Origin: Pseudomonas tritici
GTDB lineage: Bacteria; Pseudomonadota; Gammaproteobacteria; Pseudomonadales; Pseudomonadaceae
Reading direction: 5' to 3'
Assembly (NCBI RefSeq): GCF_014268275.3
Contig: NZ_CP077084.1
Location: 1,798,001-1,862,000, forward strand
Length of the DNA: 64,000 bases
The notes beneath the pieces are model-generated. The model saw nothing but the letters and a program-made list of their open reading frames with translations, did not search any database and was not told the origin of the DNA. The first letter of the stretch is position 1; every line of letters starts with the position of its first letter. This document shows, piece after piece, positions 48,095 through 58,809 of this stretch. A program made the position numbers and the translations under genes.

Positions 48095-48114
48095 ACCTGT
48101 TATTTCTGACAGTA
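48095..48114 (+). promoter_or_regulatory. LuxR-type (CT-N12-AG) box before the 656-residue protein gene
   Basis: ACCTGTTATTTCTGACAGTA fits the 20-bp lux/rhl box pattern CT-N12-AG. Its centre is 105 bp before the ATG at 48210; TTCAAT about 30 bp downstream could be the -10. Confidence 0.6.
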
Positions 48115-48209
48115 TCCGGGCACTTTTTTTGCGCATTCAATAAGTATCCGGACCTGAGCGCGCTGATCGCCCGGGTCGATCCTCGATTGATTGCTCAAGG
48201 AGTGTGACC

Positions 48210-50180
48210 ATGTCTGATTCGAACGAGCCCTCAGGCCGGCGGCGCCCTCATTGGCCACGACCGGCCCCGAAGTGCAGATGCCCCTCGGTGCGCGATGACC
48301 CTGTGATACTTGAGCTGGACGCGCCTAACCCTACCCAGGCACTGGATTTAGAGTGGGACGAAGCGGCTCGGACCTTGCCGCTTGTACTCCATGATCAGGA
48401 TCTGGAAGTCACGATTGCACGGGTCTGGCCGTTCAACCTCCATGAGGAGGACATGGTGACAACGGTGGAGTACCGTTGGGATGACGTACCTGTGCTTTCC
48501 TATCCTATTCAAGGTCCGTACAACCCTGACGACTACTTTCCGTTAGTGCAGTATTTATCCAAGTCGATCTTGTCGCCCGAGGGCATCCACCGGCTGACTT
48601 ACAATGTCAGCGCGAGGTTGATTGGGCCGACCGACTCATTTCCAACTTTCGTTAATGTCGACAAAACCGCTCCGAATGGCGGCAACCCTGGCCCGGATGT
48701 GCAGGTGGATGACGAGGCTCGCCACAAGGTGACAGATGAGTATCTAGTGACGCACGCTGGCATACCTTTTTGGCTCGCGCGTTGGTTTGATATGCGTATT
48801 GGCGATTTGATCCACGTCTATTACGGAACACTTCCCGATGTAAGCCAGGCTGCCACCTTTTGCATTACGAGAGCGCACGTGCAAGGCGCCCCCATCGCGT
48901 TCACCGTTCCCGAGGCGCACGTGCGTGCCAGCGGTCGCGGTGACAGGTTCGTGTCCTGCCGGCTTGAGGATCGAGGCGGCAATGTGGGGCAGTTTTCTGA
49001 TGCACTCAAGCTCGAGGTCTTCCCGGTTGTATTGCCGGACCTGCCTCGTCCTTTCATTGAGTTGGCTGAGCTGACAGGTGTAGTCCTCTTTGAAGATACC
49101 TGGCCGCCGAAGGCGCTGGCGGTCACCATCCCTCGGGTAGATGACGCAGAAGCAGGGGACAAGATTTATACCTATTGGAACACTCATGCTCTTGAAGTCA
49201 AGACAGTTGGCGAAGTGCAGACATGGCCCATCCCCGTGCGTGTGCCGTGGGCCATTTTTGCTGCCGGTGGCTTCTTGGCGCGCTACCCAGTGCGTGTGCG
49301 TTATGTGTATGAGCGAGGTTCAGCCTCCAAGCCATCACCCGACAGCTTTTACGAAGTTGATGGAAGGGTAGCCGGTCCGGACCCCAGCGGGCCTGATCCA
49401 ATCAATCGCAAGCTAGCCGTCCCCACTGTAAAGGGCAAGACCGGCGACAATGTGCTGACTTCCGTTGATAGCCCCGGGCCGGTGCCTGTTGAAGTGCGAT
49501 TGTTTGAAAACCCGAAAGAAGGTGAAAGCCTTGAACTGTGTTGGAACAGCGACGACGTTATCGTCGCGGCCTATGACGTTCAGCCGGGTGACGTGGCCGG
49601 GAAGTTGATCACCCTTTGGGTGCTCTGGGCAGTGGCGTCGTCCGTCAACTTCGCTGAAGTCTATTACTGGACTGACAACGGCATAAACCGGCAGCGCAGC
49701 CCTTCGACACCTGTACGGGTGAACCTCGATACCCTGACCGGCCTGAAAAGTCCGGTATTATTGAATGACAGCGACGAGTTCTTTATTGCGTGCGGGACCA
49801 AGCCGGCACCTTATGAGGGGGTATTCATTGGCGTAGGCTGGGATTTTAATCATTTCGCCATCGATGATTACCTACATTTATATTGGACAAGTTACCCGTC
49901 GAAAAATGGCAGTGGTGAGCCTTTCAGTGGCACCGATGTGTTTTTTGAGCACCGCCTGACATTGGATGATCGTGACAGAGGCCAAGTCGAGATCCGCATC
50001 CAGCCATTCAGCCTGATCACATTGCCGGGCTTGGTGACGGATTTCGGCTCGGCGGTTGTGCGGTATCGTTTGTTCAAGGCAACAGGGGAGACCGGGTTGT
50101 CCTCCAGGAAACTTATATACGTCAATTTGAAAATACCGGGTGGTGGAACGTGCCTGGGACCGCATAGTGACGGCAATTAA
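48210..50180 (+). CDS. Large beta-rich repeat protein of unknown function, member A
   Basis: 656 residues from the ATG at 48210 (AAGGAG seven bases upstream; a GTG two codons earlier is less likely). No signal peptide or membrane helix: the start MSDSNEPSGRRRPHWPRPAP is basic and proline-rich. It reads as tandem beta-sandwich units of about 110-120 residues with a recurrent pattern GDxIxxYW ... PxxVP ... A/G ... VxYxxxR (for example AGDKIYTYWNTHALEVK, then IPVRVPWAIFAAGG, YPVRVRYVYERGS). The N-terminal unit ends FVNVDKTAPNGGNPGP, a motif shared with the proteins at 50506 and 58689. No enzyme motif seen. A lux-type box and terminator flank it. Confidence 0.72.
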   Translation: MSDSNEPSGRRRPHWPRPAPKCRCPSVRDDPVILELDAPNPTQALDLEWDEAARTLPLVLHDQDLEVTIARVWPFNLHEEDMVTTVEYRWDDVPVLSYPIQGPYNPDDYFPLVQYLSKSILSPEGIHRLTYNVSARLIGPTDSFPTFVNVDKTAPNGGNPGPDVQVDDEARHKVTDEYLVTHAGIPFWLARWFDMRIGDLIHVYYGTLPDVSQAATFCITRAHVQGAPIAFTVPEAHVRASGRGDRFVSCRLEDRGGNVGQFSDALKLEVFPVVLPDLPRPFIELAELTGVVLFEDTWPPKALAVTIPRVDDAEAGDKIYTYWNTHALEVKTVGEVQTWPIPVRVPWAIFAAGGFLARYPVRVRYVYERGSASKPSPDSFYEVDGRVAGPDPSGPDPINRKLAVPTVKGKTGDNVLTSVDSPGPVPVEVRLFENPKEGESLELCWNSDDVIVAAYDVQPGDVAGKLITLWVLWAVASSVNFAEVYYWTDNGINRQRSPSTPVRVNLDTLTGLKSPVLLNDSDEFFIACGTKPAPYEGVFIGVGWDFNHFAIDDYLHLYWTSYPSKNGSGEPFSGTDVFFEHRLTLDDRDRGQVEIRIQPFSLITLPGLVTDFGSAVVRYRLFKATGETGLSSRKLIYVNLKIPGGGTCLGPHSDGN

Positions 50181-50196
50181 AACGTTGACTCAATAA

Positions 50197-50227
50197 AAGA
50201 GGGCGAAAGCCCTCTTGTTTTTTTTTG
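50197..50227 (+). terminator. Terminator after member A
   Basis: AAGAGGGC, GAAA tetraloop, GCCCTCTT, then G and a long T run, 17 bp after the stop. Confidence 0.92.
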
Positions 50228-50387
50228 TGTGGAAACGGTGACACGATTTTTGCAGCGAAACGATTCTAAAATTTAAGGCGGTGTTTAGATTAACTGGCGT
50301 TAAAAGGATCTATTTTTCCACGGGTTTGCTATTAAGGAAGGTGTTTGTGCGCAGTGTTAGTTAGAAGCATACTTTGTGCGTTTGTGC

Positions 50388-50407
50388 AGCTGTCAAAGTT
50401 AACAGGC
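50388..50407 (+). promoter_or_regulatory. LuxR-type (CT-N12-AG) box before member B
   Basis: AGCTGTCAAAGTTAACAGGC; dyad CTGTCA/TAACAG with CT-N12-AG spacing, centre 108 bp before the ATG at 50506. Confidence 0.58.
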
Positions 50408-50505
50408 TGTGCATTCAGGGTGAACGAGGTCTAATTAAGCTGTCATTCGTCTCGCGTCTCGGGCGATGAACGCGAACAGTCCCTCATTCATTGGAGTATA
50501 AAAAC

Positions 50506-52521
50506 ATGGCTAAGTCGAACAACACGCAAAAAGCCTCAGCCGAGAAAACAAAGAAGTCAAAAGCCGAGGGCGGTACCAAAGCGTACGTCGACCCCTTGGT
50601 GAGTCCTGTTCCCCATGGTCTTGCGCCCCCCGGACCTCGGGCTTTGGATGATCCGGAAGTTATCAATGCCCTTCCTCCAGTGGACGGTTTGCCGCCTAAT
50701 CTGATGAAAACTATCGTTGCGCAAACGGAAGGCGTCAACCTTGAAGTTGGTATGTGGGAAGATGCCTTTCCGCTTCCTCAAAGCATTCCTGATGTGTTTC
50801 GGATGTATGTGAATGATGTCCCTTATGGCAAGCCTATTGAGCGAGCCAAGCCATTGGCGGATCTGGAGTGGCCATTGAAATTAACCATCAATGCCGTCGA
50901 TGTTTCGAGTCATGGAGAGTATCGTGTACGTTCTGAGGTTGCTTTGGGGTCGGGTGGTAATGAGCAATCCGGTACTACCCTGGTGAACGTCGATACTATT
51001 GGCCCTGCCGGTGGGATTTTATTGGATGCTGTGACCCTGAAGGGCGGTGCGGTGGGTGGGAAAGTCACGCTGGAGTCGTTGGCCGCGAATGGGGACAAAC
51101 TTGATGTTTCTGTTCCAGGGCGTTTGATTGCACGTCTTAAGGATGAACTGTGGTTGTATGCGGATTTAACCGATGAGCAACCAATAAAAGTTGTTACCGA
51201 TCTGCCAGTTAATAATTTGCCTGTCGTTATTTCTCTCAGTAAGGATGAGATTATCGGTAAAGGCTCACGTGTAGAACACATGTCGTTTCGCTACTTTGAC
51301 TACTCCGAGAACTCAACGATTTATCCGACAAAGTTGAGAGAGGTTGAGTATGTGTTAACGCCCCAGCCGATGAACTTGACTGACCCCGCGGCACCGGCGG
51401 CACCGTGGGACCTTCGAGAAGCGCAGTTGAAATTGGTGGAAGTGCATATTTTTGGTTGGGACAATTATAGACCTGGCCAAACCCTGAACATCGACCTGGG
51501 TGGTCACGTGTTCTCGGTTGCATTGTCATCCGAGCCGACGCTTGCAAACCCCGAAAAAATTGAAATTCCATGGCTCATTCTCTTCATGGCCTATGGAATC
51601 ACCGCTGCAGGTACAGCCAACCTTCGTTACCAAGTGGTGGATGGCGGCACTCCTTCAGCATGGTCCAACGCTATTTCGGTGGCTGCAGACTTCAGTTCAG
51701 CCGCTGGAGAACCTGGAGGTCCCGGCCCCATCCGGGATTACCTACCGCTGATTACGGTAACTTCTTCCGAAGGACTCACCAACGAAATTGGACCGGGTGA
51801 TGACGGCGACGCTACTGCAGAATTTGATGTATATACGGGAGCGGTGGCGGGGCACGAGCTTCAGCTCTACTGGGCCGGAATACCGATTTTCACCCCCACT
51901 CCTCATATCGTGACACAGGCGGAGATTGACTCAGGGACGTTTACGTTCCCTATTGCTGCGGCAATCATCGCCGCAGGCCTTAACGGAGTGGACAAGCCCG
52001 TCTGGTACAGCCTGACGAACGGTGTGAACCCCAACATGGACACCTCCCTGTCTACGCTGGTTGATGTGTTTGCCAGTGAACTGAAAAACCTGGCACTGGC
52101 GGAATTCCCTAAATCCGTAAGTGCGGGCGGCACCTTGCGCTCGATCAGTTGCAAGCAGTTTGTTGAGCTTGGCATCGACACCAGAATCAAGGATGTGGTG
52201 AATCTGAAAACAGGCGACACGATCAGGCGTTTCTGGACCCTGTATGGAGAGGGCTTGACGTCCACCAACAAATTGGTCGAAGCAGAAATTCTGCCTCCGA
52301 TTGTGGTCGCAAATGATCACAGCCTACCGGGCCACGATGGCGAAGAATTCGTCGCGGATTTCGCCACGTATGTCCAGCCAGCGGTTTTGGGGCGAGTTGA
52401 GTTCTATTACACCGTACTCAAAGCCGATGGGGTGACGATGGGCCAAGCCCTACCGACGATTCTTTATGTCAGCCGTCGTAACGCCGATAACACCGTTTGC
52501 GGTGCTCTGCCTACGCCTTGA
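50506..52521 (+). CDS. Large beta-rich repeat protein of unknown function, member B
   Basis: 671 residues from the ATG at 50506 (GGAG ten bases upstream). The N-terminus is a lysine-rich, disordered tail (MAKSNNTQKASAEKTKKSKA) rather than a signal peptide. The first beta unit (FRMYVNDVPYGKPIERAKPL ... LVNVDTIGPAGG) aligns by eye with the first unit of member A (FVNVDKTAPNGG). Later units repeat the GDxIxxFW/LYWAG ... IPW-type ... NLRYQVVDGG pattern. No cysteines of note, no membrane helix, no enzyme motif. Base composition is lower in GC than the flanking core genes. Probably a paralogue of the genes at 48210 and 58689. Confidence 0.72.
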   Translation: MAKSNNTQKASAEKTKKSKAEGGTKAYVDPLVSPVPHGLAPPGPRALDDPEVINALPPVDGLPPNLMKTIVAQTEGVNLEVGMWEDAFPLPQSIPDVFRMYVNDVPYGKPIERAKPLADLEWPLKLTINAVDVSSHGEYRVRSEVALGSGGNEQSGTTLVNVDTIGPAGGILLDAVTLKGGAVGGKVTLESLAANGDKLDVSVPGRLIARLKDELWLYADLTDEQPIKVVTDLPVNNLPVVISLSKDEIIGKGSRVEHMSFRYFDYSENSTIYPTKLREVEYVLTPQPMNLTDPAAPAAPWDLREAQLKLVEVHIFGWDNYRPGQTLNIDLGGHVFSVALSSEPTLANPEKIEIPWLILFMAYGITAAGTANLRYQVVDGGTPSAWSNAISVAADFSSAAGEPGGPGPIRDYLPLITVTSSEGLTNEIGPGDDGDATAEFDVYTGAVAGHELQLYWAGIPIFTPTPHIVTQAEIDSGTFTFPIAAAIIAAGLNGVDKPVWYSLTNGVNPNMDTSLSTLVDVFASELKNLALAEFPKSVSAGGTLRSISCKQFVELGIDTRIKDVVNLKTGDTIRRFWTLYGEGLTSTNKLVEAEILPPIVVANDHSLPGHDGEEFVADFATYVQPAVLGRVEFYYTVLKADGVTMGQALPTILYVSRRNADNTVCGALPTP

Positions 52522-52538
52522 AAGCGTCGCCAGGTATG

Positions 52539-52564
52539 AACCGTCATGGGTAGCCGTGACGGTT
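52539..52564 (+). terminator. Terminator after member B
   Basis: AACCGTCA, ten-base loop, TGACGGTT, followed nine bases later by a run of six T. Confidence 0.75.
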
Positions 52565-52762
52565 TGTACCGTTCTTTTTTCGCGAGCCATTGCCGGCTCA
52601 AACATCACGACCTGCCGTGATTAAGGAAAGTCCTACTCCGCCCCTGGACTATCCCTACATGGGCTTCCCTGCCTGATACGTACCCTTGCCGCTTCTGAAA
52701 GCCAGAGTCGATGGTCCTTTAAATCGCTTGGCTTGTTCAGTCACCGACTAGAGGTACTAAAC

Positions 52763-55015
52763 ATGTCTACTGAAAAAACATTTTGTCTTTCTCGTTTATC
52801 ACGTGCTATCAAATTACTGGCCGTCATGCCTGTGGCCTTGGCGGCGACACAGGCCCATGCGTTGAACATCTACCCTGGGCAGAACGTGGTCATTGACGCT
52901 GACACGTTGGTTGACCGCTACGACGTGAACGAGGCCACCCTGACCTCGAATGGGGCCAGGATGCTGGGCGTTAAAGCCTATGATTCGACCTTTACGATGA
53001 ACGGTGGCACGGTCAAGAACACCGCCGGTACTGAAGTGGGCGTGGCGCTTTATGGCAGTAAAGCCACCCTGCGCGATGCTTCGATCTACAGCGGCGGTGC
53101 CGAAGGCATGATTGTCGGCACCAATTCGGACCGCGGCTCTGCCGTCGAAGTGTTCGATAGCGAGGTGACGGGCGCCACAGATGGCATCGTGCTTAGCGGC
53201 TCTAGCACCTTGGCCTTGCACAACACCCAGGTCAGCGGTGCAAACGCTGGTTTGCGAGCGTACGACGGACAGTTGACCACCCAGGGCGGCCGAATTTACG
53301 GCGGCACCAACGGCATTGTGGCGTATCGCCTGCCTACGGTGGATAACCCCTCCGTGCTTAACCTCAACCAGACTGAAGTGGTGGGCGGAACAGGGGCTGC
53401 CATCCTGGTGGACTACCCCGGTGGCACCGAGATCAACATCAACAATGGCACGACCTTGGTCGGCGGCAACGGCAACATGCTTGAGCTCGCCCACGGCGGC
53501 GCGGCCGATGTCAATGTCTACAACAGTTCCTTGAACGGCAATATCCAAGTCGGCAAAGACAGCGCCCTGGATCTGAACATGGATTTCGCCTTCATGAACG
53601 GCGATATCATCAACAGCGGCGGCATCGCCAACGTTGGTCTGAACAACGGTTCAGTGCTGACCGGGCGCCTGGACAATGTCGACAAACTGTCGGTCAACAG
53701 CGACGCCACCTGGGTAATGGTGGACGGTCAACAGGCACTCAATGAGTTGTCGATGAATGGCGGTAACGTGAAGTTTGGCGACTCGGCCGCCTTTTATAAG
53801 TTGGACGTGGCCAACCTGTCCGGCACCGGCGGTACGTTCATCATGAAGGCAGATTTCGGCTCGCTGACCGGCGACTTCCTGAACGTGACGGGCACCTCAG
53901 CAGGTAACCATCAGTTGCTGCTCGCCGCCACGGGTGCCGACCCGTTGAACGAGCGCCTGCACATGGTGCACACCGCCGATGGTGTGGCGAATTTCAGCCT
54001 GGTGGGCGGTCGTGTCGATCGCGGCACCTATTCTTACGACCTGGCAGCGGATAACCAGAACCACGATTGGTACCTGGACCCGGACAGCAAGGTCATCAGT
54101 CCGAGCACCAACTCGGTGTTGGCGTTGTTCAATGCGGCGCCGAGTGTGTTGTTGGGGGAAATGACCAACCTGCGTACGCGCATGGGCGAACTGCGTTTCA
54201 ATGGCGGCCAGACCGCCGGCTTGTGGACCCGCGCCTATGGCAATAAGTATGAAGTGTCCAACAACAAGACGGGCTTGGATTATAACCAGAGTCAACGCGG
54301 TTTCACCCTGGGTGCCGATGCGCCGCTGGAAGCCGGTGACGGGCAGTGGCTGATCGGCGCGATGGCCGGCCACAGCCAATCGGACCTGGACCTGAACCTG
54401 GGCAGCAAAGCCACCATCAACAGTTACTACATGGGCGGCTATGCAACGTGGCTGGACAGCGAAAGCGGCTTCTACTTCGACGGTGTGCTCAAGTTCAACC
54501 GCTTGCACAATGAGTCCAACGTGGCCATGAGCGACGGCAAGAAGAGTAAAGGCAACTACACGCAAAACGCCATGGGCGCCTCGGCGGAGTTCGGCCGCCA
54601 TATTACGCTGGATGACGGTTACTTCGTCGAACCCTATGGCCAGTTGGCGGCGGTGATTACTCAAGCCCAAAGCTATACGCTGGACAATGGCCTGCAAGCC
54701 AAAGGTGATCGTTCGAGTTCGGTCATTGGTGAGCTGGGTGTGACTGCCGGTAATAATATCCAGCTCGACAACGGCGGCGTGCTGCAGCCTTACTTGAAAG
54801 CCGCGGTCGCCCATGAGTTTGATCAGAGCAACAAAGTGTTCGTCAACGATAACTCGTTCAACAACGACCTGTCGGGTTCACGATTGAAACTGGGGGCGGG
54901 TGTGGCGATGTCGGTGTCGCAGGCGTTGAGCCTGCATGCAGACGTGGAGCGCAGCGTGGGCAAGAATATCAAGCAACCCATGGGAGTGAATGTGGGGCTT
55001 CGCTACGCGTTCTAA
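52763..55015 (+). CDS. Autotransporter (type Va), pertactin/AIDA-like passenger
   Basis: 750 residues from the ATG at 52763 (AGAGG eight bases upstream). Signal peptide LLAVMPVALAATQAHA. The passenger from about residue 35 to 460 is a beta-helix of short T/N/G-rich turns (STFTMNGGTVKNTAGTEVGV, LHNTQVSGANAGLRAYDGQL), ending with a pertactin-like stem (NHDWYLDPDSKVISPSTNSV). The last 280 residues are the autotransporter beta-barrel, starting near TAGLWTRAYGNKYEV and ending with the terminal signature GVNVGLRYAF. No RGD motif or protease triad seen, so an adhesin is more likely than an enzyme. Secreted to the cell surface by itself. Confidence 0.9.
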   Translation: MSTEKTFCLSRLSRAIKLLAVMPVALAATQAHALNIYPGQNVVIDADTLVDRYDVNEATLTSNGARMLGVKAYDSTFTMNGGTVKNTAGTEVGVALYGSKATLRDASIYSGGAEGMIVGTNSDRGSAVEVFDSEVTGATDGIVLSGSSTLALHNTQVSGANAGLRAYDGQLTTQGGRIYGGTNGIVAYRLPTVDNPSVLNLNQTEVVGGTGAAILVDYPGGTEININNGTTLVGGNGNMLELAHGGAADVNVYNSSLNGNIQVGKDSALDLNMDFAFMNGDIINSGGIANVGLNNGSVLTGRLDNVDKLSVNSDATWVMVDGQQALNELSMNGGNVKFGDSAAFYKLDVANLSGTGGTFIMKADFGSLTGDFLNVTGTSAGNHQLLLAATGADPLNERLHMVHTADGVANFSLVGGRVDRGTYSYDLAADNQNHDWYLDPDSKVISPSTNSVLALFNAAPSVLLGEMTNLRTRMGELRFNGGQTAGLWTRAYGNKYEVSNNKTGLDYNQSQRGFTLGADAPLEAGDGQWLIGAMAGHSQSDLDLNLGSKATINSYYMGGYATWLDSESGFYFDGVLKFNRLHNESNVAMSDGKKSKGNYTQNAMGASAEFGRHITLDDGYFVEPYGQLAAVITQAQSYTLDNGLQAKGDRSSSVIGELGVTAGNNIQLDNGGVLQPYLKAAVAHEFDQSNKVFVNDNSFNNDLSGSRLKLGAGVAMSVSQALSLHADVERSVGKNIKQPMGVNVGLRYAF

Positions 55016-55047
55016 GTGTCGTCGGGGCTGATTTCCGTTCGTCAGGC

Positions 55048-55090
55048 AAACCGCTAACCTGTCAAATCTGACAGTAGGCGGTTTGTGTTT
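55048..55090 (+). terminator. Terminator-like palindrome after the autotransporter gene, enclosing a lux-type box
   Basis: AAACCGC and GCGGTTT arms enclose CTGTCA-AATC-TGACAG, followed by GTGTTTTT. It can end autotransporter transcription and at the same time contains a CT-N12-AG box facing the lipoprotein gene. Confidence 0.65.
55057..55076 (+). promoter_or_regulatory. LuxR-type (CT-N12-AG) box before the small lipoprotein gene
   Basis: ACCTGTCAAATCTGACAGTA, the most symmetric of the four; it differs at two core positions from the remembered rhlA box CCTGTGAAATCTGGCAGTT. Centre 66 bp before the ATG at 55133. Confidence 0.6.
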
Positions 55091-55132
55091 TTGGGGGCTA
55101 ACTGGATGGGCATTCCTTATCAGGAGATTCCC

Positions 55133-55420
55133 ATGCCTCATTTTATTAGTAAAAAAACTATGCGTACCGTCCCCAAGGTCTTACTGGCAGCAGGCATGGC
55201 TGTACTGCTTGCCGCTTGTTCCAGTGGACCTTCCGAGACGGTCTCAAGTGAGTACCCCGGACTTGATCCTGCCTGCACTAGCGCAGGTTATTTCAAAAGC
55301 ATATCGCCCGGTTGGTATTATCGGTGTGTGTGGAACGGCAGTATCAATCGATGGATAAAATACCCAAACCAATGCCCGGCTGGGCAAGAGTTTGATGAGG
55401 CTCTTAAACGTTGTAGATAA
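55133..55420 (+). CDS. Small lipoprotein with a chitin-binding-type-2-like cysteine pattern
   Basis: 95 residues from the ATG at 55133 (AGGAG six bases upstream). Lipoprotein signal VPKVLLAAGMAVLLAACSSG. The mature 68 residues hold four more cysteines: LDPACTSAGYF, YYRCVWNGS, YPNQCPAGQEFDEALKRC. The end CPxGxxFDxxLxxC resembles the terminal part of peritrophin/CBM14 chitin-binding modules; this resemblance is by eye. Probably outer-membrane anchored. Preceded by a lux-type box. Confidence 0.72.
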   Translation: MPHFISKKTMRTVPKVLLAAGMAVLLAACSSGPSETVSSEYPGLDPACTSAGYFKSISPGWYYRCVWNGSINRWIKYPNQCPAGQEFDEALKRCR

Positions 55421-55436
55421 GAAGTAATACATTAAT

Positions 55437-55470
55437 AGGCCTCTCTACCTGACGGTAAAGAGGCCTTTTT
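55437..55470. terminator. Bidirectional terminator between the lipoprotein gene and member C
   Basis: AGGCCTCT, spacer CTACCTGACGGTA, AAGAGGCCTTTTT. Confidence 0.88.
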
Positions 55471-55536
55471 AATGCCTGGAGAATTGCGGCGTGGGGTGGC
55501 AATATCACCACCCTGCGTCGGTGTTCAGGAATGAGT

Positions 55537-58500
55537 CTATGGCCGCTCCACAACCAAAATATCATCCAGTGAAAATTCTGCCCCTGAGTAGGTACTCTTG
55601 AAGTAGATGCGCATAGGCAAGAACTGAGAGGGAACTCCGGCAGGCAATGAAAAGGTCCTCGAATGTGAGGTCCACACACCTGGGTTAACATGGACGAACG
55701 TCTGTGACTGAGTGCCGAACTCTATGAAAACCTGGGGTTGATAGGGGCTCAGGTCCACCTTCATCTTGAAGCTCAAGTCGTAGGCTTTACCGCTCTCGAT
55801 ATAGAAAGTTTTAATGACGCCGGGAGCGACAGGGCTGCCGTTATTCAGTTTTACATACCAGAAGTTATTGTTATTTACATTTCTGATTACGCCCGTGCCG
55901 TTGATGATATTGACCCATCCGTTCCAGGACAATAATTCAAAGTCTGTCAAATCATGGAGCCGAAGCGCTCTTATGATGTAAGTGCTCAACGGAAAGGACG
56001 TGGCGTTCAGTTCATTTGAACTACCATCGAAAGTGACGGCTGCCTTTGCCGTAACCTGGCTGTCATTTGCGAGTGGGGTAAACCAACTGCGTATTGCCTT
56101 TTCATTCACTATCCCGTTGTCGGCTTGGGTTTGGTCGATCGGATGGCCGTCCAACAGTGTTAAGGGTATTGCACCAACACTATGGAGCCTGAGCCAGATC
56201 CGTTGGCCTTTTCTGCTCAACAGCCACCGCGCCAAGTCCACCCAGCAGTCGGTGTTGAATGTGTTCAAGTCCACGATTGAGCCGGGTTTCAGGCCATTGA
56301 GTCTTGGCCGCGGCAGTGGATTGCCGCCGGGTAGTTCATCGAAGTCCAGTACGCGCAGATTCAGCACCCTTGAGTCATCGGTGGCGCCGTTGGTGGTGAC
56401 GTGATACTGAAGACGCAGGACGCTCCCAACGTAGTCGCCGATCACACTGTTGGAGAACTTGAAATCGACGAAACCTGTGGTTGGGTTGCCGTATTGGGGC
56501 GTTATGGACGGCAGCGTCGCACCGGGTTTGCCCAGCAGTTCGAGTTTAATGAGATCGTTCGAAGACACCGGTGCAAACTGCACGCGCACCGTCACCTCGG
56601 GAGTGTTGTCAGCAATGACCGGGTTGATGGTCGCGTTTTCGTCGTCCACCGGCGTGCTGTTGTAAACGAAAGGCGTAGGTAGATGGCGCCCTGCGAGGAT
56701 TTTCATGGGCACGCTGTTCGAAAAGCGCGTTACAACGCCTGGGCGGGACCGGTCGTAGAAAATATTCATGAAGTGATTGAGCAGGATGTACTTGCGCTCG
56801 AGCGTGAAAGGCAGCGGCCTGTCTTCCCAAGTGTCTGAGACAAAGAAGGGTTGCGGCGGAGCGCTTCCTCCATTGCCTTCAGCATGCAGGGTGACCGTAT
56901 CCCCCACTTTGATATCGTTGTTGGGGTCGACCTCAATGGTGGCATCGCCGGGGGATTGGCTCGTATCAAACACGTAATCAGGCGGCGGCGCATCATACAC
57001 CCTCGGTTCGGGCAGTGCGGCCGCAGAGGCACCGACATAAACTGTTGTTTCCGGGGATGGCCGTGTTCCCTCGCTATTCTCACTGGTATAAGAGGCTGTC
57101 AGGCTGCCCCCTGCCAATTTGGCAATATCACCCTCGGGGCCATTGATAATCGAGAACACCACATTGCCTGCGCCTGCATTTTTGGATTCTTCGTGGTAGT
57201 AATACTTGCCGTTAGGGTAGCGGCCCAGCAGCTTCAGCGTGATGCGGTCAAAGAAATCCTGTCCGTGAGATTTACGGATGTCAATGTTAACGATGGGGGT
57301 ATCAGCAGGCAGTGTTTCACCGACAGCCTCCCGAAATATCGGGGCGTAGAGCCCGACGGGAAGGGCGGTGCCGATCACTCTGACCTGGGTAAGCTGTGAG
57401 CCTCTATTCGGCGCGCCAAAGCGAATGCGCTCATAGCGAAGTCGAGCCTGCCCTCTGATCAACGGGACCAGGTCGCTTACCGGGCATGGAATTCTAAGCT
57501 GGCGCGTCGTGGTGGATGTCAGGGGGGCGGAACTGTAGGTTTTCTTCACCGTTTGCCCATCCACCGTCCTGCCAGTGAGGGTCACCTTGATCACGTCGCC
57601 CAACAGGTAGGCGTTACCCGCGATTGGAATGATGATCGTCACGAAGGCACCAACGACCTCGTCGAGGTTGAGGATGTCTTCCGGAGCCTCATCGAAGAAG
57701 CAGTGGGGCAACAATGGCTCTGAACCATCGTTCAGGAACACCTGGATGAATTCGGGGAGCGACCAGCCTTCCGAATAGTTTCCGCATTCATCAATCACGT
57801 TGTACTCGGCGAGGTGAGAGCCGCTGCCGATCTGGCGCCACTGTTCAATGCACAGCCTGAATACAATGTCCTCAAAACCATCCGCTTCTGGCTCAGATAC
57901 CTTATGTTCGAATAATGCGTCGCCGATTTTCAGGCGAACAACATCACGCTCCGCCCGGTAGGTGCGTGGTGACAATGAGGTATCGGCGGGGTAGAAGGGG
58001 ACGCGAATCTCTATGCAGTTTTGGGCGTCGTCTTCTGAAACGCCAAAGTCGAGAAATTCTTGGGGAATGATTGGCTTGAGCATATTCGTATTTACAAAAC
58101 TGTGGCCGTTCGGGTTTTGTCCGGCGGGTACCACCTTATCGACCTTCAGCGTGAATTTTCTGGTTTCTCCTACGGCCTGGCCGAGGCTTGTGACCCTGAT
58201 GTACGCGATTGCAAAGCCATCGGTGATCGTATCCGAGGGTACGAACAGCACAATCAACTCTGCGTTATCCACTTCATGCTGGTGGATGGTGGTGGACGCG
58301 ACGGGCTTGGTCAGGTCGCCAAAGAACAGTTCCACGAGCTGCAGCGCTGCCATTTCCAGAAATGGCAGCAAGGCGATCAGTAGCCCCTCCTCGTGGGTCG
58401 TTATCGCGACGAGATTGATACCTGCATCGACGCCTTGCACCGGCTGGGTATTTGCGGGGATATACAGTACCAAGTCTTCGAGGCGAACCTTTTTGAAGGC

Positions 58501-58689
58501 TTGCGTCGAGTTGAGAGATACGTCGGAGGGGCGTGGCACCAGGTAACGAGGATCAATGAACGTACGCCGTGCAGCCTGTTTCTTTTTTTGTTGTTGCTTG
58601 GCGGCGTACGGCGCAAGCAGTGATCGCCCCTGTGCAAGCTTGATCAAGCGTTGGCCGGGTGGCGTGGAAGATTCTTCTGCGTTATCCAT
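55537..58689 (-). CDS. Very large beta-rich repeat protein of unknown function, member C
   Basis: 1050 residues from the ATG at 58689 (GAGGG seven bases upstream). No signal peptide; the N-terminus is hydrophilic with a basic stretch (AAKQQQKKKQAARRTFIDPR). The first unit ends FTLKVDKVVPAGQNPNG, matching the VNVDxxxPxGG boundary of members A and B. Six or so further beta-sandwich units follow (LLGDVIKVTLTGRTVDGQTV, VGDTVTLHAEGNGGSAPPQP, NDLIKLELLGKPGATLPSIT). The last 150 residues differ: a jelly-roll, carbohydrate-binding-like module (SFKMKVDLSPYQPQVFIEFG, SGAEFSLDDILVVER). No catalytic motif recognised. Transcribed toward the lipoprotein gene; lux-type box at 58790-58809. Confidence 0.72.
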   Translation of the reverse strand: MDNAEESSTPPGQRLIKLAQGRSLLAPYAAKQQQKKKQAARRTFIDPRYLVPRPSDVSLNSTQAFKKVRLEDLVLYIPANTQPVQGVDAGINLVAITTHEEGLLIALLPFLEMAALQLVELFFGDLTKPVASTTIHQHEVDNAELIVLFVPSDTITDGFAIAYIRVTSLGQAVGETRKFTLKVDKVVPAGQNPNGHSFVNTNMLKPIIPQEFLDFGVSEDDAQNCIEIRVPFYPADTSLSPRTYRAERDVVRLKIGDALFEHKVSEPEADGFEDIVFRLCIEQWRQIGSGSHLAEYNVIDECGNYSEGWSLPEFIQVFLNDGSEPLLPHCFFDEAPEDILNLDEVVGAFVTIIIPIAGNAYLLGDVIKVTLTGRTVDGQTVKKTYSSAPLTSTTTRQLRIPCPVSDLVPLIRGQARLRYERIRFGAPNRGSQLTQVRVIGTALPVGLYAPIFREAVGETLPADTPIVNIDIRKSHGQDFFDRITLKLLGRYPNGKYYYHEESKNAGAGNVVFSIINGPEGDIAKLAGGSLTASYTSENSEGTRPSPETTVYVGASAAALPEPRVYDAPPPDYVFDTSQSPGDATIEVDPNNDIKVGDTVTLHAEGNGGSAPPQPFFVSDTWEDRPLPFTLERKYILLNHFMNIFYDRSRPGVVTRFSNSVPMKILAGRHLPTPFVYNSTPVDDENATINPVIADNTPEVTVRVQFAPVSSNDLIKLELLGKPGATLPSITPQYGNPTTGFVDFKFSNSVIGDYVGSVLRLQYHVTTNGATDDSRVLNLRVLDFDELPGGNPLPRPRLNGLKPGSIVDLNTFNTDCWVDLARWLLSRKGQRIWLRLHSVGAIPLTLLDGHPIDQTQADNGIVNEKAIRSWFTPLANDSQVTAKAAVTFDGSSNELNATSFPLSTYIIRALRLHDLTDFELLSWNGWVNIINGTGVIRNVNNNNFWYVKLNNGSPVAPGVIKTFYIESGKAYDLSFKMKVDLSPYQPQVFIEFGTQSQTFVHVNPGVWTSHSRTFSLPAGVPSQFLPMRIYFKSTYSGAEFSLDDILVVERP

Positions 58690-58789
58690 GGTGGAACCCT
58701 CTGCAGTCAGTGAGGAACTCAATGTCTACGGCCCATTTACTGAGTGGGAGTAGCTGCGAGAGGTGTAACGCGGAACTCGGGGGGCAACC

Positions 58790-58809
58790 AGCTGTGAGAA
58801 TTGACAGTG
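58790..58809 (-). promoter_or_regulatory. LuxR-type (CT-N12-AG) box before member C
   Basis: Minus strand CACTGTCAATTCTCACAGCT, with CT-N12-AG spacing; its centre is 110 bp before the ATG at 58689, close to the distances at members A and B. Confidence 0.58.

Follow-up and report, generated by a model that had tools for sequence, protein, structure and literature searches.

The window, that is, the whole 64,000-nucleotide stretch of Pseudomonas tritici DNA that we analyzed, carries three genes for large proteins and one for a small protein, each preceded by a 16-bp dyad of the LuxR-box type (Table 1). The four elements listed in a first-pass annotation are present as 16-bp cores at these positions, and the distances of their centers from the start codons of the three large genes are as it gave them. 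Its description of that spacing as constant holds within this gene type, with 108, 108, and 110 bp found again in three homologues (L286, L287, and L305) and other values in the remaining homologues, and does not extend to the other targets in the genome, where the distances differ. The three large genes had also been taken for paralogues, which is partly right: a distant relation links 48204-50180 to 50491-52521 (BLASTP E value of 9e-7), but between 55537-58722 and 50491-52521 no relation was detected by BLASTP (E value of 0.5) or hhalign (probability of 4.5). The gene 55537-58722 is instead related to one at 4.54 Mb that also bears a box (BLASTP E value of 4e-14). For 50491-52521, a search of named genomes, from which near records were possibly left out, returned zero relatives, a sequence search for a relative of solved structure found none, and a structure model was weak (mean pLDDT of 56.7). 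An autotransporter gene with a pertactin-like passenger (PF03797 and PF03212; 52733-55015) is flanked by two of the box-bearing genes; it has no box of its own and is possibly cotranscribed with the preceding gene.

Table 1. Boxes, promoter elements, and genes in the window (window positions) and box-bearing targets elsewhere in the genome
Feature	Position	Strand	Remarks
Large protein, function not known, no Pfam match	48204-50180, ATG 48210	+	Box 48097 upstream
LuxR-type box CTGTTATTTCTGACAG	48097-48112	+	Center 105 bp 5' of ATG at 48210
-10-like TTCAAT	48136-48141	+	23 bp 3' of box 48097
Large protein, function not known	50491-52521, ATG 50506	+	Homologues in 22/199 genomes
LuxR-type box CTGTCAAAGTTAACAG	50390-50405	+	Center 108 bp 5' of ATG at 50506
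-10-like TCTAAT	50430-50435	+	24 bp 3' of box 50390
Small protein, weak CBM_14 match	55133-55420	+	Lipoprotein-like N terminus (by eye)
LuxR-type box CTGTCAAATCTGACAG	55059-55074	+	Center 66 bp 5' of ATG at 55133; weak -10, best 3/6
Large protein, function not known	55537-58722, ATG 58689	-	Box-bearing relatives at 4.54 Mb
LuxR-type box CTGTCAATTCTCACAG	58792-58807	-	Center 110 bp 5' of ATG at 58689; weak -10, best 3/6
Three ~900-aa proteins	4.54 Mb		Box upstream; one compared, related to 55537-58722
657-aa protein			Box target
Several small proteins			Box targets; one DUF6252, one DUF3757 below cutoff
Thioredoxin-like protein			Box target
NRPS-like adenylation-carrier-reductase gene, stand-alone	L033 1959-4976, genome about 3.872 Mb		Two boxes upstream
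Small genes			Two boxes ahead; one gene with subthreshold cold-shock match
BvgA-like regulator, then BvgS-like sensor	L031 5011-9924, genome about 2.506 Mb		Own box

The pattern CTGTNANNNNTNACAG is matched four times in the window against 0.07 matches expected, and none of 100 shuffled sequences held four or more; the loose form CT-N12-AG shows no excess over chance there (151 seen against 168 expected), so the signal resides in the specific sequence. Across the 6.24-Mb genome there are 20 matches, against 1 for a reversed control pattern, a frequency unlike that of chance, and since the window holds just 4 of the 20, the idea of a self-contained island has to be given up. Gene starts at the other 16 sites are our own reading of the open frames. 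One site (G000:2442702; L030 4703) was dropped from the regulon because it lies inside a longer palindrome and its -10 match is at best 3/6; with it set aside, about 19 regulon sites remain, 4 of which make up the window island. That site, a perfect 24-bp palindrome (ATTCCTGTCATCGGTGACAGGAAT) upstream of a hydantoinase-like gene (named by eye), probably belongs to another regulator, and cores similar to it (CTGTCATCGGTGACAG) were found again in other genomes. With two mismatches allowed, matches to the pattern exceeded the reversed control in 10 of 10 genomes, motif-negative ones included (195 against 101 in G000; 139 against 104 in G007), so that the pattern does not discriminate at this stringency. 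A small receiver-like protein is encoded downstream of the BvgA/BvgS-like pair.

Promoter geometry was read in both directions at 73 distinct sites from this genome and other retrieved loci, some of which may be orthologous promoters and hence nonindependent. The sequence TAnnnT stands exactly 23 bp 3' of the core 17 times, and at each of the 59 other offsets it is seen 0 to 5 times (mean of 0.9), giving a Poisson probability of 7e-16 with a mean of 0.97. This peak puts the box center near -43, and LuxR boxes are expected near -42.5, the position from which LuxR-type proteins activate; by its sequence geometry, then, the box would lie near -42.5 of a sigma-70 promoter. Once the -10 element sets the orientation, the core is followed by the flank T-A-G-N-C. 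Two of the four window boxes, those at 48097 and 50390, have a fitting -10 element. The excess over chance and the -10 spacing together support the original description of these elements as LuxR-type boxes.

Known systems show a similar arrangement. The lux box of Vibrio fischeri luxI has the core CTGT-N8-ACAG and lies 23 bp from its -10 element, sharing both features with the present box, but its inner bases differ and it serves luxI-linked quorum sensing. The afe-box of AfeR in Acidithiobacillus ferrooxidans, as described in the accessible part of its report (PMC3759942), is AHL dependent and overlaps the -35 element of a sigma-70 promoter, and its core, GCTGTCAA-NN-TTGACAGC, fits the present box at 12 of 12 fixed positions; unlike the present box, it is the site of a LuxI/LuxR pair from a different genus and lies inside a 30-bp palindrome. 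The sequence CTGTCAGATCTGACAG had zero matches in the literature searched, and among the matches listed for half-sites and LuxR, we recognized no description of the present regulon.

As the first-pass annotation had supposed, the receptor would be encoded outside the window: LuxR-family proteins are present, and three with an autoinducer domain are encoded elsewhere in the genome, at 2.04, 3.69, and 5.60 Mb. The only luxI adjoins the luxR at 3.69 Mb, the 2.04-Mb gene adjoins a proline-iminopeptidase-like gene (by eye), and the gene at 5.60 Mb lies between fpr and rsmC and encodes a solo of 236 aa (PF03472 and PF00196) with no adjoining luxI. None of the three, the solo included, has a box nearby. 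The residues that we take, by TraR numbering, to line the ligand pocket of the solo are kept in 93 to 100 of 100 solo rows, and the P. tritici protein has A in the place of G113, as do 4 of the 100 rows; its relatives belong to the P. fluorescens group and include proteins of P. trivialis (92%), P. cedrina (80%), and P. extremorientalis (77%). Gene position, domains, and luxI-free neighborhood place it in the PpoR family, or subgroup A, of LuxR solos, which Bez et al. (2021), in the available portion of their report, define by the neighbors fpr and rsmC (PMC8546723). According to the portions available, PpoR (PMC2703642) and PplR (PMC11543582) bind AHLs, no target was found for P. putida Ppu16R (PMC8546723), and 79 of the 84 genes changed in a pplR mutant were down; the authors propose an AHL-independent role (PMC11543582). 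These three proteins resemble the 5.60-Mb solo in location, in pairing an autoinducer domain with a LuxR HTH, and in the absence of luxI alongside; the available texts of those papers (PMC2703642, PMC11543582, and PMC8546723) give no binding site for them, whereas a box is predicted here.

The distribution of the motif points to this solo. In 199 Pseudomonas-type genomes, sampled evenly from a bigger collection, CTGTCA-N4-TGACAG is either abundant or nearly absent: it occurs in 139, with a maximum of 35 copies and 0 to 2 for reversed controls, and by our count 110 genomes have at least three sites. The stretch from fpr to rsmC, located through a match to fpr or to LuxR, could be read in 165 of the 199 (118, 20, and 25, plus G115 and G038 by eye); G093, where the LuxR match had neither neighbor in view, was left out of the count, and the unread genomes comprise G022, the sole positive among them, and 33 others with 0 to 2 sites each. 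A LuxR-type gene lies between fpr and rsmC in all 109 read genomes with at least three sites, and none of the 18 genomes lacking such a gene reaches three sites (0 to 2 copies each, with no rsmC seen next to fpr in two of the 18, G001 and G177). Fisher's test of the association gives 2e-25 over 163 genomes with kinship ignored; a tree of rsmC (118 genomes) yields just five supported independent pairs, on average 1.1 agreeing and 0 opposing.

The recognition helix varies along with the box. At least three sites are found in 104 of the 113 genomes with an xRT helix (93 of 96 with a full-length receptor and 11 of 17 with the HTH-only form described below, so that six of the nine exceptions are HTH-only), in 1 of the 30 with Q/T/K-ST (G070, three sites), and in 4 of the 4 with E/P-ST. 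Since these last four ST genomes (G096, G097, G127, and G196) are rich in sites, a single residue is not decisive, and many other HTH positions differ between the helix groups. Homologues of 50491-52521 (25 matches in 22 of 199 genomes) allow the same promoter to be compared: a box of at least 11/12 stands at 15 of 15 homologues in 14 xRT genomes and at 0 of 8 in Q/K-ST genomes, where the best match is 10/12. Five of those eight have CTNNYA-N4-TGYCAG, a count that is descriptive, the form having been defined on those very promoters, and four of the five have TNNAAT at 23 bp, a spacing that is independent support for this putative variant box. Presumed putida-type genomes, with Q/T/K-ST, differ from xRT genomes in both helix and box. 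Two HTH-only genomes carry a 50491-52521 homologue; in one, CTAGTAGTTCTGCTAG is followed by TTTAAT at 23 bp, and in the other there is no box.

Other readers of the box have to be weighed against the solo. The luxI-paired LuxR at 3.69 Mb, which would make this classical quorum sensing, and the LuxR at 2.04 Mb are both encoded in this genome, as is LuxI, but of 25 genomes of the same genus just 4 have luxI, among them G003, which lacks any site, so luxI does not track the motif. The 2.04-Mb type, found in 42 of 199 genomes, does not track it either, occurring in the site-free G007, G009, and G143, and with no box near either luxR, we regard a reading by one of these two proteins as very unlikely. 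The BvgA-like response regulator at 2.506 Mb has a LuxR-type HTH and a box in its own promoter, centered 59 bp 5' of the ATG; its orthologues (at least 77% identity), however, occur in just 33 of 199 genomes against the 110 rich in sites, do not track the motif, and make it an extremely improbable reader. Finally, an unrelated palindrome-binding regulator might merely share its history with the fpr-rsmC LuxR gene. The LexA site, CTG-N10-CAG, has a dyad length that also fits the box, and the rsmC tree controls kinship incompletely; against this, the geometry and core match LuxR boxes, the regulon is absent from all 18 genomes in which the fpr-rsmC stretch was read and found to lack the gene, and the box diverges where the helix diverges, all of which, over the regulators considered here, render such a reader very unlikely. 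A genuine LuxR-type regulon, with the fpr-adjacent solo at 5.60 Mb as the likeliest reader by predicted binding, is in our judgment highly probable. Quorum sensing proper is a candidate reading, the leading receptor candidate being a solo that lacks an adjoining luxI.

We therefore favor a model built on sequence comparison, in which a LuxR-family regulator, the subgroup A solo, would bind the 16-bp dyad with consensus CTGTCA-N4-TGACAG, centered near -43 with the sigma-70 -10 element 23 bp 3' of it, and would activate from there. It would control about 19 sites, and its putative targets are large and small proteins of no assigned function, an NRPS-like reductase, a cold-shock-like protein, and a BvgA/BvgS-like two-component system. 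The motif excess, the -10 geometry, the co-occurrence of gene and motif, and the parallel difference in helix and box are computed results, from which we infer direct binding, activation, and a response to an AHL signal, the cell's own or a neighbor's. The predicted box, the target list, and the helix difference make the function of subgroup A solos directly testable, including any sensing of neighbors' AHLs, and the regulon would give a widespread receptor family concrete target genes.

In 17 genomes (G018, G020, G081, G098, and 13 more; loci L048, L049, L059, L094, and others), only a LuxR-type HTH of about 80 residues is encoded between fpr and rsmC. From the first ATG, it measures 77 to 87 residues in 14 of the 17 and 59, 108, and 112 in the rest; GGAG lies at most 18 bases upstream of that ATG in 13, and 11 of these genomes still have at least three boxes. 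G018 and G020, and also G022, have a LuxR gene adjoining methionine-salvage-like genes (named by eye); because this arrangement resembles subgroup F of Bez et al. (PMC8546723), we infer that the HTH-only genomes form a P. syringae/viridiflava-like clade. More tentatively, and as a real possibility rather than an expectation, the solo may govern a genus-wide regulon whose receptor and DNA recognition code changed in concert (Q/T/K-ST with CTNNYA-N4-TGYCAG, xRT with CTGTCA-N4-TGACAG), while another clade lost the ligand domain and its DNA-binding protein of about 80 residues runs the remaining regulon as a signal-free switch. If true, loss of the ligand domain with persistence of the boxes would mark a route from a quorum-sensing protein to signal independence. 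The receptor is shortened in G139, and five genomes (G087 [L118], G191 [L121], G101 [L135], G103 [L313], and G199 [L327]), which keep 5 to 30 boxes, have an interruption in the full-length solo; such shortened or interrupted receptors may be decay or assembly faults, and the five interrupted solos may be further steps to the HTH-only form.
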